NCBI RefSeq assembly: GCF_024655565.1
Contig: NZ_JANKOF010000040.1
Span: 1-38,142, forward strand
Length of the DNA: 38,142 nt
Origin: Nitratireductor sp. ZSWI3
GTDB taxonomy: Bacteria > Pseudomonadota > Alphaproteobacteria > Rhizobiales > Rhizobiaceae
Direction of reading: 5' to 3'
A program made the position numbers and the translations under genes. The notes under the pieces are model-generated. The model was not told the origin of the DNA, ran no database searches, and was given only the letters and a program-made list of their open reading frames with translations. Shown one piece after another: positions 10,297 through 37,518 of the stretch (the stretch's first letter is position 1; every line of letters begins with the position of its first letter).

Positions 10297-10439
10297 GCGC
10301 TCCAGTCCCCTGGTTTGTTCAAGTCGAAACGGTACCGCGAAACTATGAGGTGGACATTGCGAGCGCAAGAGCACGAATGCCTCTGGCGGAGCGCCGGGCG
10401 GAAGCCTATATTGGCGACGGCGGTCTGCGCTTCCCGACA

Positions 10440-10580
10440 GGAAAACTTATCCCCGGGGCCTTATCGATCCTTAAGGGAGTTGTTCCTGGCCTTGCCCGTG
10501 GGCTCGGTCACACGGCGCCCACCTACTTTGTAGGTTCCCGGGATCGACATTCCATCGGTCGTCGTGGATCGCTCTGTTTT
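10440..10580 (+). ncRNA. ssrS: Probable 6S RNA (boundaries approximate)
   Basis: 6S RNA mimics an open promoter and binds RNA polymerase holoenzyme. This segment folds into one long rod. Outer pairing is GATCC (10466-10470) with GGATC (10566-10570). The inner arm pairs GTTGTTCCTGG (10479-10489) with CCGGGATCGAC (10538-10548), with one mismatch and two G-U pairs. The apical stem is GTGGGC (10498-10503) with GCCCAC (10517-10522). A side hairpin CCTAC-TTT-GTAGG (10522-10534) lies on the 3' strand of the central bubble, and a T-rich stretch follows at 10574-10588. It lies directly upstream of 5-formyl-THF cyclo-ligase (ygfA/fau), the conserved neighbour of ssrS. The outermost closing stem was not resolved. 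Confidence 0.62.
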
Positions 10581-27935: not shown

Positions 27936-27983
27936 CGCTGTTCAGCGCGTGTGCTTAATAGACAAAAAAACGGGAGGATTCTG

Positions 27984-29627
27984 GTGGCTGAAAACATGTA
28001 TGAGCGGGATCTCGACAAGAACTCCGCCAATTACCAGCCCTTGACGCCGCTCGTGTTCCTCGAGCGGGCCGCAAAGGTCTTTCCCGAGCGAGTAGCGGTC
28101 GTGCACGGCCGGCAACGCCTGTCCTACGCCGCATTCTGGGAGCGCTCGCTGAAGCTGGCTTCGGCGCTGGAGCGCCACGGCATCGGCAAGGGCGACACGG
28201 TGACGGTGATGTTGTCGAACACGCCGGCGATGCTGGAAGCCCATCACGGCGTGCCGATGGTCAAGGCCGTGCTTCATTCCCTCAACACCCGCCTCGATGC
28301 AGCGATCATCGCCTTCCAGCTAGACCATGCCGAGAGCAAGGTGGTGATCGTCGACCGCGAATTCTCCGGCGTGATGCAGGAGGCGCTGGCCCTGGCCAGC
28401 GTATCACCGCTGGTGATCGATTACGACGACCCGGAATTTCCGGAGGACGCGCCCTACGGGCAGGGCGACCGCATCGGCAGCATCGATTACGAGGCTTTCC
28501 TCGCCTCGGGCCGGGCGGATTTCGCCTGGTCGATGCCGGACGACGAGTGGGATGCGATCGCGCTGAACTATACGTCGGGCACGACCGGCAACCCGAAGGG
28601 GGTCGTCTATCATCACCGCGGCGCGGCGTTGATGGCCTACGCCAATACGGTGCATGCCGGTCTTGGCCGGGGCTCGGTCTATCTGTGGACGCTGCCGATG
28701 TTCCACTGCAACGGCTGGTGCTTTCCCTGGACGCTCGCGGTCACCGGCAGCACGCATGTGTGCCTGCGCTGGGTGCGCGCCAAGGCGATGTATGATGCGA
28801 TCGCCGATCACGGCGTCACGCATCTTTGCGGCGCGCCCATCGTCATGTCGGCATTGCTCAACGCGCCGGACGGCGAGAAGCGGGACTTTCCGCAGACCGT
28901 CACCTTCAACACGGCGGCCGCCCCGCCGCCGGAATCCATCCTTTCGGGGATGGCCGACGCCGGTTTCGCGGTCACCCATCTCTACGGCCTGACCGAGACT
29001 TACGGTCCGGCCGTGGTGAACGAATGGAAGGGCGAATGGGACGCGCTCGACAGCGCCGGACAGGCGATGCGCAAGGCGCGTCAGGGGGTGCGCTACGCGG
29101 CGCTCGAGGGCCTTGCCGTGATGGATCCGCAAACCATGGCCGAGACACCGCGCGACGGCGAGACGATCGGCGAGGTGATGTTCCGCGGCAACATCGTGAT
29201 GAAGGGGTATCTGAAGAACAAGGCGGCGAGCGAGGAGGCCTTTGCCGGCGGCTGGTTCCACTCGGGCGATTTGGGCGTCGTGCATCCCGACGGCTATATC
29301 CAGCTGAAGGACCGCTCCAAGGACATCATCATCTCCGGCGGCGAGAACATCTCCTCCATCGAGGTGGAGGATGCGCTCTACAAGCATCCGGCGATCGCCG
29401 CCTGCGGCGTGGTGGCGAAGACGCACGAGAAATGGGGGGAAACGCCGGTCGCCTTCGTCGAACTGAAGCCCGGCCGCACGGCGACGGAGAGCGAGATCCT
29501 CAACCATTGCCGGGCGCTTCTGGCGCATTTCAAATGCCCTAAGAGCGTTATTTTCTCTGAAATTCCAAAGACTTCGACGGGTAAGATTCAAAAATTCAGG
29601 CTGCGGGAGATGGCCGCAAGGCTATGA
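27984..29627 (+). CDS. Acyl-CoA synthetase (AMP-forming, ANL superfamily)
   Basis: A 547-residue adenylate-forming enzyme that activates a carboxylic acid as acyl-AMP and transfers it to CoA. The P-loop motif YTSGTTGNPKGV lies near 196-207, LYGLTETYGP near 334, GWFHSGDLG near 423, and the C-terminal catalytic lysine is in TSTGKIQKFRLR. Its style (NCNGW-like FHCNGWCFPW, GAPIVMS) fits medium/short-chain or DmdB-like ligases; the substrate is not decided. I prefer GTG 27984 because GGGAGG stands 6 nt upstream; GTG 27951 is an alternative. It is downstream of the TauE-like gene. Confidence 0.92.
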   Translation: MAENMYERDLDKNSANYQPLTPLVFLERAAKVFPERVAVVHGRQRLSYAAFWERSLKLASALERHGIGKGDTVTVMLSNTPAMLEAHHGVPMVKAVLHSLNTRLDAAIIAFQLDHAESKVVIVDREFSGVMQEALALASVSPLVIDYDDPEFPEDAPYGQGDRIGSIDYEAFLASGRADFAWSMPDDEWDAIALNYTSGTTGNPKGVVYHHRGAALMAYANTVHAGLGRGSVYLWTLPMFHCNGWCFPWTLAVTGSTHVCLRWVRAKAMYDAIADHGVTHLCGAPIVMSALLNAPDGEKRDFPQTVTFNTAAAPPPESILSGMADAGFAVTHLYGLTETYGPAVVNEWKGEWDALDSAGQAMRKARQGVRYAALEGLAVMDPQTMAETPRDGETIGEVMFRGNIVMKGYLKNKAASEEAFAGGWFHSGDLGVVHPDGYIQLKDRSKDIIISGGENISSIEVEDALYKHPAIAACGVVAKTHEKWGETPVAFVELKPGRTATESEILNHCRALLAHFKCPKSVIFSEIPKTSTGKIQKFRLREMAARL

Positions 29628-29663
29628 AGTAGAAACTATTTGAAACGACATTCGCGTCTTCCG

Positions 29664-29678
29664 TTAACCATTCATTAA
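29664..29678 (+). promoter_or_regulatory. Exact TTAA-N7-TTAA box (CtrA-type) before the small RNA candidate
   Basis: TTAACCATTCATTAA matches the bipartite CtrA recognition sequence TTAA-N7-TTAA exactly, with the common CCAT extension. It lies 23-37 bp before the first base-paired part of the small RNA candidate, the usual place of activating CtrA boxes over the -35 region. Binding is inferred. Confidence 0.6.
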
Positions 29679-29700
29679 GCTTTACGTGCGTTTACTGTGC

Positions 29701-29799
29701 TTATCCAGTGATCTGGATTCTTACCGAGTGGCTGGAGCCATTCTGTTTGACGCCTCCCTGTTTAAAACTCCTGAGAGCCGCCATCGCGGCTCTTTTTTT
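29701..29799 (+). ncRNA. Small RNA candidate, suhB/alpha-r8 (MmgR)-like, ending in an intrinsic terminator
   Basis: Three hairpins are visible in 99 nt. The first is ATCCAG-TGAT-CTGGAT (29703-29718). The second is AGTGGC-TGGA-GCCATT, including one G-U pair (29727-29742). The third is the terminator AGAGCCGC-CATC-GCGGCTCT with seven T. Between the last two lies an unpaired stretch with CGCCTCCCTG, an anti-Shine-Dalgarno motif like that of the rhizobial MmgR/suhB RNA family, which is recalled from memory. There is no open reading frame of note. An exact CtrA-type box precedes it. It could instead be the 3' end of the acs transcript or an attenuated leader of rcdA. Confidence 0.6.
29774..29799 (+). 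terminator. Intrinsic terminator
   Basis: A perfect 8-bp stem AGAGCCGC (29774-29781) and GCGGCTCT (29786-29793) with tetraloop CATC is followed by a T run (29793-29799). It is a textbook Rho-independent terminator on the plus strand, 147 bp after the acyl-CoA synthetase stop and upstream of rcdA. Confidence 0.92.
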
Positions 29800-29814
29800 G
29801 GCCATTTGGGGATG

Positions 29815-29829
29815 TTAACCCTTTATTAA
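29815..29829 (+). promoter_or_regulatory. Exact TTAA-N7-TTAA box (CtrA-type) upstream of rcdA
   Basis: TTAACCCTTTATTAA is a second exact bipartite CtrA-type box, located after the terminator and 137 bp before the rcdA ATG, so it belongs to rcdA. CtrA control of rcdA would form a feedback loop, since RcdA promotes CtrA degradation. Binding is inferred from the motif. Confidence 0.6.
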
Positions 29830-29965
29830 GGATAAGCTTGCCAACGGCTGTGGACGGGCGCATTTTGGCCATGAGCCGCAGTCATTGAGGCTCTCGTATG
29901 AGTATGATTGTAAGGGCAGTCCGGTCGCAGAACCGGCAAGTCGATCTTGGTGGGGCGTAAGCAAA

Positions 29966-30499
29966 ATGATTGAAGGCGGGACCGGTCGCGCGACAACGAT
30001 CAAGCTGGCCGAACATCGTGTTTTCTCGGATTCCTTCAAGCCGCTCTACAACCAGGGCATGGGACTGGTCGAGGAGGCCGCCGAGTATCTCGACGGCGAG
30101 GGGCGGGCCTCCGCCAAGGCGCTGTCGCCGACCGCTGCGGCCCTTTACGCGGCCGAATCCATGCGGCTCACCACGCGCCTGATGCAGCTTGCCTCCTGGC
30201 TTCTCCTGCAGCGCGCCGCCAACGCCGGCGAGATGACGCGCGATCAGGTGGCGGCGGAAAAATCCAAGGTCCGCCTCGACACGACCTCGCCGCAGGACAA
30301 GGCCCCGGACTGGTTGGCTCTGCCGGAAGCGTTTCGCGGTCTCGTGGTGCGATCCCTGCGCCTGCAGGATCTGGTCCGCCGGATGGACGACGAGATATAC
30401 GGGACCGAGGCGCAGGAGACCGACCCTCTGGCCCTGCTCAGCACGAATCCCGTGTTCGAGCAGATCACCCTTCTCAAGACGGCCTTCGGGCATCGCTGA
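29966..30499 (+). CDS. rcdA: Protease adaptor RcdA (DUF1465 family)
   Basis: A 177-residue helical protein of the DUF1465 family, founded by Caulobacter RcdA, the adaptor that with CpdR and PopA presents CtrA to ClpXP at the G1-S transition. Visible hallmarks are LAEHRVFSDSFKPLYNQGM-like helix 1 (14-32), the long helix YAAESMRLTTRLMQLASWLL, and RGLVVRSLRLQDLVRRMDDEIY near the C-terminus. The ATG at 29966 fits the family length; an upstream in-frame TTG (29885) adds 27 unrelated residues. A CtrA-type box lies 137 bp upstream. ruvC follows after 81 bp. Confidence 0.87.
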   Translation: MIEGGTGRATTIKLAEHRVFSDSFKPLYNQGMGLVEEAAEYLDGEGRASAKALSPTAAALYAAESMRLTTRLMQLASWLLLQRAANAGEMTRDQVAAEKSKVRLDTTSPQDKAPDWLALPEAFRGLVVRSLRLQDLVRRMDDEIYGTEAQETDPLALLSTNPVFEQITLLKTAFGHR

Positions 30500-33316: not shown

Positions 33317-33331
33317 CTAACGCTTAATTAA
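33317..33331 (+). promoter_or_regulatory. CtrA-like box (one mismatch) upstream of tolQ
   Basis: CTAACGCTTAATTAA followed by CCAT is CTAA-N7-TTAA, one mismatch from the CtrA consensus, 197 bp before tolQ. It sits in the only sizeable gap between ybgC and tolQ, where a separate tol promoter is expected. Confidence 0.35.
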
Positions 33332-37411: not shown

Positions 37412-37518
37412 CCGCGGGACGGCCCGGCGGCCATGTCGCGTTTCTGCCGCATTTTAAGCTAGTTTGCGCGAAATAACGGTCCAAAGTCGGATCGGTAAGG
37501 CTTCGTTAACCGCGTTTC

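Follow-up and report, generated by a model that had tools for sequence, protein, structure and literature searches.

A likely CtrA site before a small RNA gene next to rcdA suggests that a little-studied RNA belongs to the CtrA circuit

The new sequence comparison suggests that a small RNA (sRNA) gene which stands directly before rcdA, and which carries a likely CtrA site over its promoter, brings a little-studied RNA into the CtrA circuit. CtrA is the cell-cycle controller of Alphaproteobacteria, and few RNAs have been linked to it so far. The locus lies in a stretch of 38,142 nucleotides from Nitratireductor sp. ZSWI3 (hereafter the window), and the comparison predicts that CtrA very probably drives the sRNA, because the box is fixed over the -35 region, is present in ten of ten strong matches outside the order and stays with the RNA when rcdA parts from it. 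CtrA control of rcdA itself in the window's locus is the weaker prediction. For an Rfam family without a role in the literature searched, the comparison thereby points to a probable regulator, adds a conserved partner gene and supplies a promoter open to tests in model species.

The first-pass annotation of this DNA had proposed two perfect TTAA-N7-TTAA boxes starting at 29664 and 29815, an intrinsic terminator between them, an sRNA candidate and a downstream DUF1465/RcdA gene (Table 1). Each of these elements stands up. Both boxes are exact on the + strand, and the terminator is present, with its stem at 29773-29794 and a T run to 29799. The RNA is beyond a candidate, as its RF02356 score exceeds the gathering threshold (67.2 versus 50 bits), and three sources agree on the protein: PF07323 (178.7 bits), the NCBIfam RcdA equivalog NF051867 (200.1 bits, cut-off 170) and the RcdA structure PDB 3ctw (E 9e-27). 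The start codon of rcdA was placed at ATG 29966, the closest named homologues of its product are from Nitratireductor (best identity 84%), and the gene is flanked by an acyl-CoA synthetase gene (27951-29627) and ruvCA. CtrA is encoded in the same genome (NF045991, 422.3 versus a cut-off of 350). Five TTAA-N7-TTAA sites with at most one mismatch occur in the window, where 100 shuffles give a mean of 0.47 and a maximum of 3, and exact palindromic sites number 23 in the 5.2-Mb assembly versus 13 for the backwards pattern. Since only 23 exact sites exist assembly-wide, two of them within 151 bp are unlikely to have arisen by chance.

Table 1 Features of the sRNA-rcdA locus, in window coordinates
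Feature	Position	Strand	Sequence or basis
CtrA box 1	29664..29678	+	TTAACCATTCATTAA, exact TTAA-N7-TTAA, over the -35 region of the predicted sRNA promoter
-10-like element TTTACT of the predicted sRNA promoter	29691..29696	+	sequence; T/A-rich alignment columns
sRNA, RF02356 (BjrC1505), ~97 nt, predicted 5' end	29703..29799	+	covariance models, fold
Hairpin 1, ATCCAG-TGAT-CTGGAT	29703..29718	+	alignment, pairing counts, fold
Hairpin 2, GAGTGGC-TGGA-GCCATTC	29726..29743	+	alignment, pairing counts, fold
Unpaired conserved stretch TTTGACGCCTCCCTG, anti-Shine-Dalgarno-like CCTCCC, putative seed	29746..29760	+	CCTCCC conservation, fold
sRNA intrinsic terminator	29773..29799	+	fold; pairing in 99.2% of cells (38 rows)
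CtrA box 2	29815..29829	+	TTAACCCTTTATTAA, exact TTAA-N7-TTAA, 5' of the putative rcdA promoter
Putative rcdA promoter P2, read by eye	29837..29866	+	CTTGCC, 17 nt, GCATTTT
rcdA (DUF1465), ClpXP adaptor	29966..30499	+	PF07323, NF051867, PDB 3ctw

The RF02356 match covers 29654-29799 and all 140 model positions, and it is the sole one in the genome at E <= 0.001. R1, a covariance model built from the RNA part alone with the box region excluded, matches 29699-29799 at 85.5 bits, a score obtained with the window itself as a row of the R1 alignment. With its start 49 nt 5' of the predicted RNA start, the Rfam match takes in both box 1 and the -10 region; a warning is therefore attached to RF02356, whose 5' part may represent promoter DNA rather than RNA. 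In the window, several non-standard pairs are marked in this 5' domain. For the window RNA the folding energy is -35.1 kcal/mol (z -4.39), and the longer Rfam span still folds better than shuffles (z -3.45), so that a 5' end further upstream, inside the box, is possible.

The 38-row alignment shows two hairpins and an unpaired stretch with GCCTCCC, followed by the terminator. Pairing holds in 97.1% of 720 cells over the 38 rows, as compared with 35-51% for slid structures, and two-sided changes occur in 13 of 19 pairs; none of 500 shuffles reaches this value or the pairing percentage. The rows (alignment A1) were cut with CCTCCC as the anchor, and the invariance of CCTCCC among them is thus partly selected. 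In all 41 family representatives, however, the RF02356 match also contains CCTCCC. Diverged sRNA copies differ at this stretch, with S. meliloti having TTCTCCCTG. An alignment of box-bearing loci, picked for that very trait, has T/A-rich columns 7-13 nt 5' of the RNA; the box columns of that profile carry no evidential weight by themselves. A sigma-70 consensus scan listed neither the sRNA promoter nor P2. BjrC1505 is reportedly expressed in Bradyrhizobium. Within the portions of the literature that were searched, BjrC1505 is named only in a table, and neither a function of RF02356 nor a link to CtrA or rcdA was found; the original description, Madhugiri 2012, may say more.

Conservation of box 1 extends throughout the order. 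Over a zone of 50 start positions ahead of the seed, 18 of 41 representatives of other families carry the box exactly and 40 with at most one mismatch (family G072, at a contig start, excluded), where dinucleotide shuffles give 0.4 and 5.6. Another 75 loci from the order, counted without L187 (cut at its 5' end), yield 29 exact boxes and 69 with at most one mismatch, against 0.76 and 8.9 in shuffles, and 51 of these 69 have the box at offset -34 or -35 relative to where R1 starts. The six loci that miss it include L202, which reaches a contig end and was scored as a miss. Loci found via RF02356 are biased towards having the box, because that model contains the box region; the bias is absent for loci found via the RcdA protein and for class matches found with R1, because R1 contains the RNA part only. 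Box 1 is exact in 62 of 67 RcdA-found loci with CCTCCC (window copy included, many of them close Mesorhizobium relatives), has one mismatch in four and is missing in one; three more RcdA-found loci lack CCTCCC. Genomes are not independent samples in any of these counts. Across 18 further genera of the window's family, 16 have the box with at most one mismatch and two are without it.

Beyond the order, the box accompanies all ten strong R1 matches, which come from eight families and have it at -37 to -47 (a count without a shuffle baseline). Of 20 weaker class matches, 7 have it (shuffles 0.9). By eye, nine of the 13 boxless weak matches look like another RNA type: L264, L265, L269, L272, L276 and L280 have CTCCCAGACGTGAAGCCTCCCTGT-like stretches, L270, L275 and L278 have GTTTCCTCCCT, and all nine probably represent another anti-Shine-Dalgarno RNA type. 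Three others (L271, L274, L277) resemble the sRNA by eye, yet have no box in the zone searched. Upstream of one diverged sRNA copy, L151, no site comes within one mismatch of the box.

Box 1 tracks the sRNA, not rcdA. No rcdA was detected in the order genomes G052, G099, G135, G166, G080, G120, G155, G085 and G156 (4.3-6.9 Mb), and five of them (G052, G085, G155, G156, G166) retain the sRNA in a total of six copies. The box stands at -35 or -36 in five of these copies; the remaining one, in G085, has a one-mismatch site at -16. In G024, where sRNA and rcdA are 4.6 kb apart, the sRNA is still preceded by box 1, and rcdA by box 2 with CTTGCC. Three loci (L016, L017, L066) keep rcdA and box 2 with no recognisable sRNA. 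Second copies or strays of the sRNA come with the box in L142 and L147 and without it in the poor copies L148 and L149. GANTC (CcrM) sites near the start show no apparent consistency by eye.

Box 2, by contrast, belongs mainly to the window's family and is rare in others. It is exact in 67 of the 70 rcdA loci L001-L070 (window copy included) and, among 18 additional family genera, in 14, as against none of the 41 representatives of other families, and the 75-locus set has it in all four family loci and in 4 of 71 others (L191, L209, L232, L240). A CTTGC or CTTGA follows within 16 nt of box 2 in 63 loci, at exactly 7 nt in 62 of them, and CTTGCC-N17-GCATTTT reads by eye as a separate rcdA promoter. 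A comparison of both boxes across Rhizobiales, which the first-pass annotation had put forward as a check, thus bears out box 1 order-wide and does not bear out box 2 outside the family.

The model that we consider likely consists of two separable units, a CtrA-driven, trans-acting sRNA and an rcdA gene with its own promoter, which box 2 may modulate in the window's family. In the first unit, a full CtrA palindrome lies over the -35 region of the predicted promoter of the ~97-nt RF02356 sRNA, such that phosphorylated CtrA on box 1 could recruit RNA polymerase and transcription would end at the intrinsic terminator. The CCTCCC stretch suggests that the sRNA acts in trans on ribosome-binding sites, in that its unpaired CCUCCC would pair with those of target mRNAs. 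The second unit would be rcdA with its own promoter, on which the family's box 2, 7 nt upstream of CTTGCC, may act as a modulator. CtrA activity would thereby be converted into a non-coding output that adjoins the gene of CtrA's own proteolysis adaptor. The sRNA has a full TTAA-N7-TTAA site at promoter position, as expected of a member of the CtrA regulon, and in CtrA-activated promoters of Caulobacter a complete palindrome likewise overlaps the -35 region.

Published data on S. meliloti concern the same locus. CtrA ChIP-seq marks the region upstream of rcdA there (PMC4433202), which agrees with the binding that the first-pass annotation had mentioned, and rcdA does not change significantly on CtrA depletion by qPCR, lacZ fusions or arrays (PMC4433202). 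That paper assigns the peak to rcdA, and its main text uses neither the term 'sRNA' nor the term 'small RNA'. If the peak were chiefly the sRNA promoter, the unresponsive rcdA would be explained, which offers a possible reason for a published oddity, namely CtrA bound at rcdA without an effect on rcdA. A CtrA motif is also described upstream of the rcdA start sites of S. meliloti (PMC3616915), and rcdA of three agrobacteria has several start sites with predicted CtrA sites (PMC10469942), the several start sites fitting two promoters. In our comparison, exact copies of both boxes, their starts 174 bp apart, accompany a diverged sRNA beside rcdA in S. meliloti Ak57 (R1 43.2 bits, RF02356 27.2 bits). 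The earlier proposal that CtrA drives both the sRNA and rcdA from adjacent promoters divides: the sRNA part is well supported by comparison through a box 1 that is conserved and fixed, and the rcdA part so far lacks support, as an exact box 2 is mostly limited to the family and lies upstream of an apparent separate promoter, and as S. meliloti rcdA is unresponsive. A broader generalization falls slightly short of even confidence and is offered tentatively. It says that RF02356 may be a widespread CtrA-activated anti-Shine-Dalgarno sRNA of Hyphomicrobiales, patchy beyond and mostly beside rcdA, that silences mRNAs while CtrA is active, and that the S. meliloti rcdA peak may mark mainly the sRNA promoter. 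As a separate observation, rcdA and rpmE are found on a 3.72-Mb record of S. meliloti (L170, CP090106.1) that bears the label pSymB and may be a mislabelled chromosome.

The sRNA and rcdA are close companions within the order. RF02356 is present in 51 of 60 relatives, and in a sample of 150 order genomes it occurs in 126, rcdA in 136 and both in 121. In 118 of these 121 genomes, from 43 families, the two are neighbours with the sRNA upstream of rcdA on the same strand, 153-1224 nt separating the sRNA end from the start of the rcdA profile match (153-343 nt in 113 of the 118); in the remaining three they are on separate contigs. Fifteen order genomes have rcdA without an RF02356 match, and R1, applied to nine of these, recovers a diverged copy in seven (E < 1e-3) and none in two. 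Within the window's family, R1 and PF07323 were applied to 21 of 26 other genera, with R1 matches in 18, rcdA in 20 and the two as neighbours in 17 of the 18. Outside the order the sRNA is patchy: 33 of the 190 genomes in the class sample have an R1 match, and 23 of those have rcdA. Same-strand pairs no more than 1.5 kb apart occur in 13 of the 23 (three of these 13 pairs belong to the window's order), and a limit of 3.5 kb gives 14. RF02356, the only RNA model applied there, matches none of 14 control genomes, among them Caulobacter vibrioides, where rcdA is present.

Such tight linkage raises the question whether the 'sRNA' might instead be the 5' leader of rcdA, with the terminator as an attenuator and a single CtrA promoter from which read-through controls rcdA. 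The order-wide adjacency on one strand, with 153-343 nt between the two in 113 of the 118 genomes, is compatible with this, as are the rarity of an exact box 2 outside the family (0/41; 4/71) and the fact that no common rcdA promoter was recognised by eye in the gaps inspected. We regard this arrangement as unlikely, because box and terminator are kept in five of the six sRNA copies of order genomes without detected rcdA, because the box is exact in a class genome in which no rcdA was detected (G185), and because box and terminator persist at 4.6 kb from rcdA in G024 and in two genomes (G225, G351) whose rcdA is ~41 kb away on the opposite strand. Furthermore, the window's family has an apparent separate promoter, P2, and folding of the RNA by itself reveals no antiterminator.

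It is just as unlikely that box 1 is a site of repression, or that it has no effect on the RNA and is kept for other reasons. CtrA also acts as a repressor, and the fixed overlap of the box with the -35 region, in which no separate -35 element is recognisable, argues for activation, since it is the layout of CtrA-activated promoters in Caulobacter. The unresponsive S. meliloti rcdA at the same locus (PMC4433202) would fit a box with no activating role. Less probable still is a direct action of CtrA on rcdA via both boxes, with the sRNA as a by-product. The rigid geometry of box 2 in the window's family would fit such an action, and so would C. crescentus, where CtrA activates rcdA (PMC4433202) and the CtrA-bound promoters include that of rcdA (PMC4287350). 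Six non-coding RNAs have CtrA-bound promoters in C. crescentus as well (PMC4287350). Against the by-product reading, compensatory changes in the RNA and its persistence without detected rcdA show selection on the RNA itself, and rcdA of Hyphomonas neptunium is described as not regulated by CtrA (PMC7200025). Finally, a divergent MmgR/suhB RNA is very improbable: although RF00519 scores 23.3 bits in the window and 41.5 bits in the relative L065 (gathering score 41), and some weak R1 class matches look like the MmgR/suhB type, the window stays below that 41-bit score while reaching 67.2 with RF02356, L065 reaches 76.6 with RF02356, and a CtrA box is missing from the nine weak class matches that by eye resemble another type.

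The CtrA-RcdA feedback that the first-pass annotation had envisaged finds no backing here, in that pairing of the putative seed with rcdA leaders is no better than with shuffles (mean z -0.15 over 108 loci, two below -2), and ctrA leaders stand out in one of 10 genomes (G047, z -2.12; the other nine from -0.7 to 1.3, with a relative's sRNA as proxy for G002 and G104). The seed complement (15-mer, at most two mismatches) occurs at 10 sites in the own genome versus 8 for the reversed pattern; one of the 10 is the sRNA itself, and inspection of the other nine for frames identified no genes. At one seed-complement site, L167, a long frame begins directly after the site.

A shorter motif, CAGGGAGG, is found shortly before an ATG at 35 sites in the own genome versus 2 for the reversed control. 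Frames of > 220 codons begin at that ATG in 20 of the 28 sites inspected, and Pfam assigns 8 of 19 of these (L335 excluded) to solute-binding proteins, a proportion that is uncorrected for general ribosome-binding-site usage. A ranking of 234 script-called genes from 20 stretches plus the window by best seed energy reveals no excess of signal-peptide-like proteins (2/20, 6/40 and 12/80 at the top versus 36/234 overall), and ranking by the 16S anti-Shine-Dalgarno sequence instead places 5, 9 and 20 of them among the top 20, 40 and 80. Solute-binding proteins as targets are a lead only.

By covariance model, the closest known relative is BjrC1505 itself, since the window RNA belongs to the same family, RF02356. 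Among better described RNAs, CcnA of C. crescentus (CCNA_R0094) is alike in having a CtrA box before a non-coding RNA and a C-rich pairing stretch, and it is described as a 182-nt RNA in the replication origin (PMC8959179); the window sRNA has a predicted length of ~97 nt and lies beside rcdA. The authors of that study describe no clearly detected homologue of CcnA in S. meliloti (PMC8959179), where the RF02356-type RNA has a diverged copy. GspR of S. meliloti is likewise an sRNA tied to CtrA and represses ctrA (PMC5928217); its 5' end is described as lacking known promoter signatures and the RNA as likely restricted to Sinorhizobium (PMC7143759), unlike the window sRNA, which is order-wide and patchy beyond. 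EcpR1, a conserved Rhizobiales sRNA that acts on cell-cycle genes (PMC4414408), differs in having a sigma-70 promoter and in its location near pleD/divK and rpmG (PMC4414408, PMC12403871), and no match named EcpR1 appeared in the Rfam scan of the interval.

The window contains further features of note. A 6S RNA (RF00013, 79.5 bits) lies at 10419-10574 on the + strand. Moreover, one-mismatch CtrA-box-like sites at 33317-33331 and 37495-37509 stand 5' of two frames taken for tolQ (33528) and pal (37586), which belong to a gene run that reads ruvCAB-ybgC-tolQRAB-pal (ruvC and ruvA by Pfam, the remaining names by eye).
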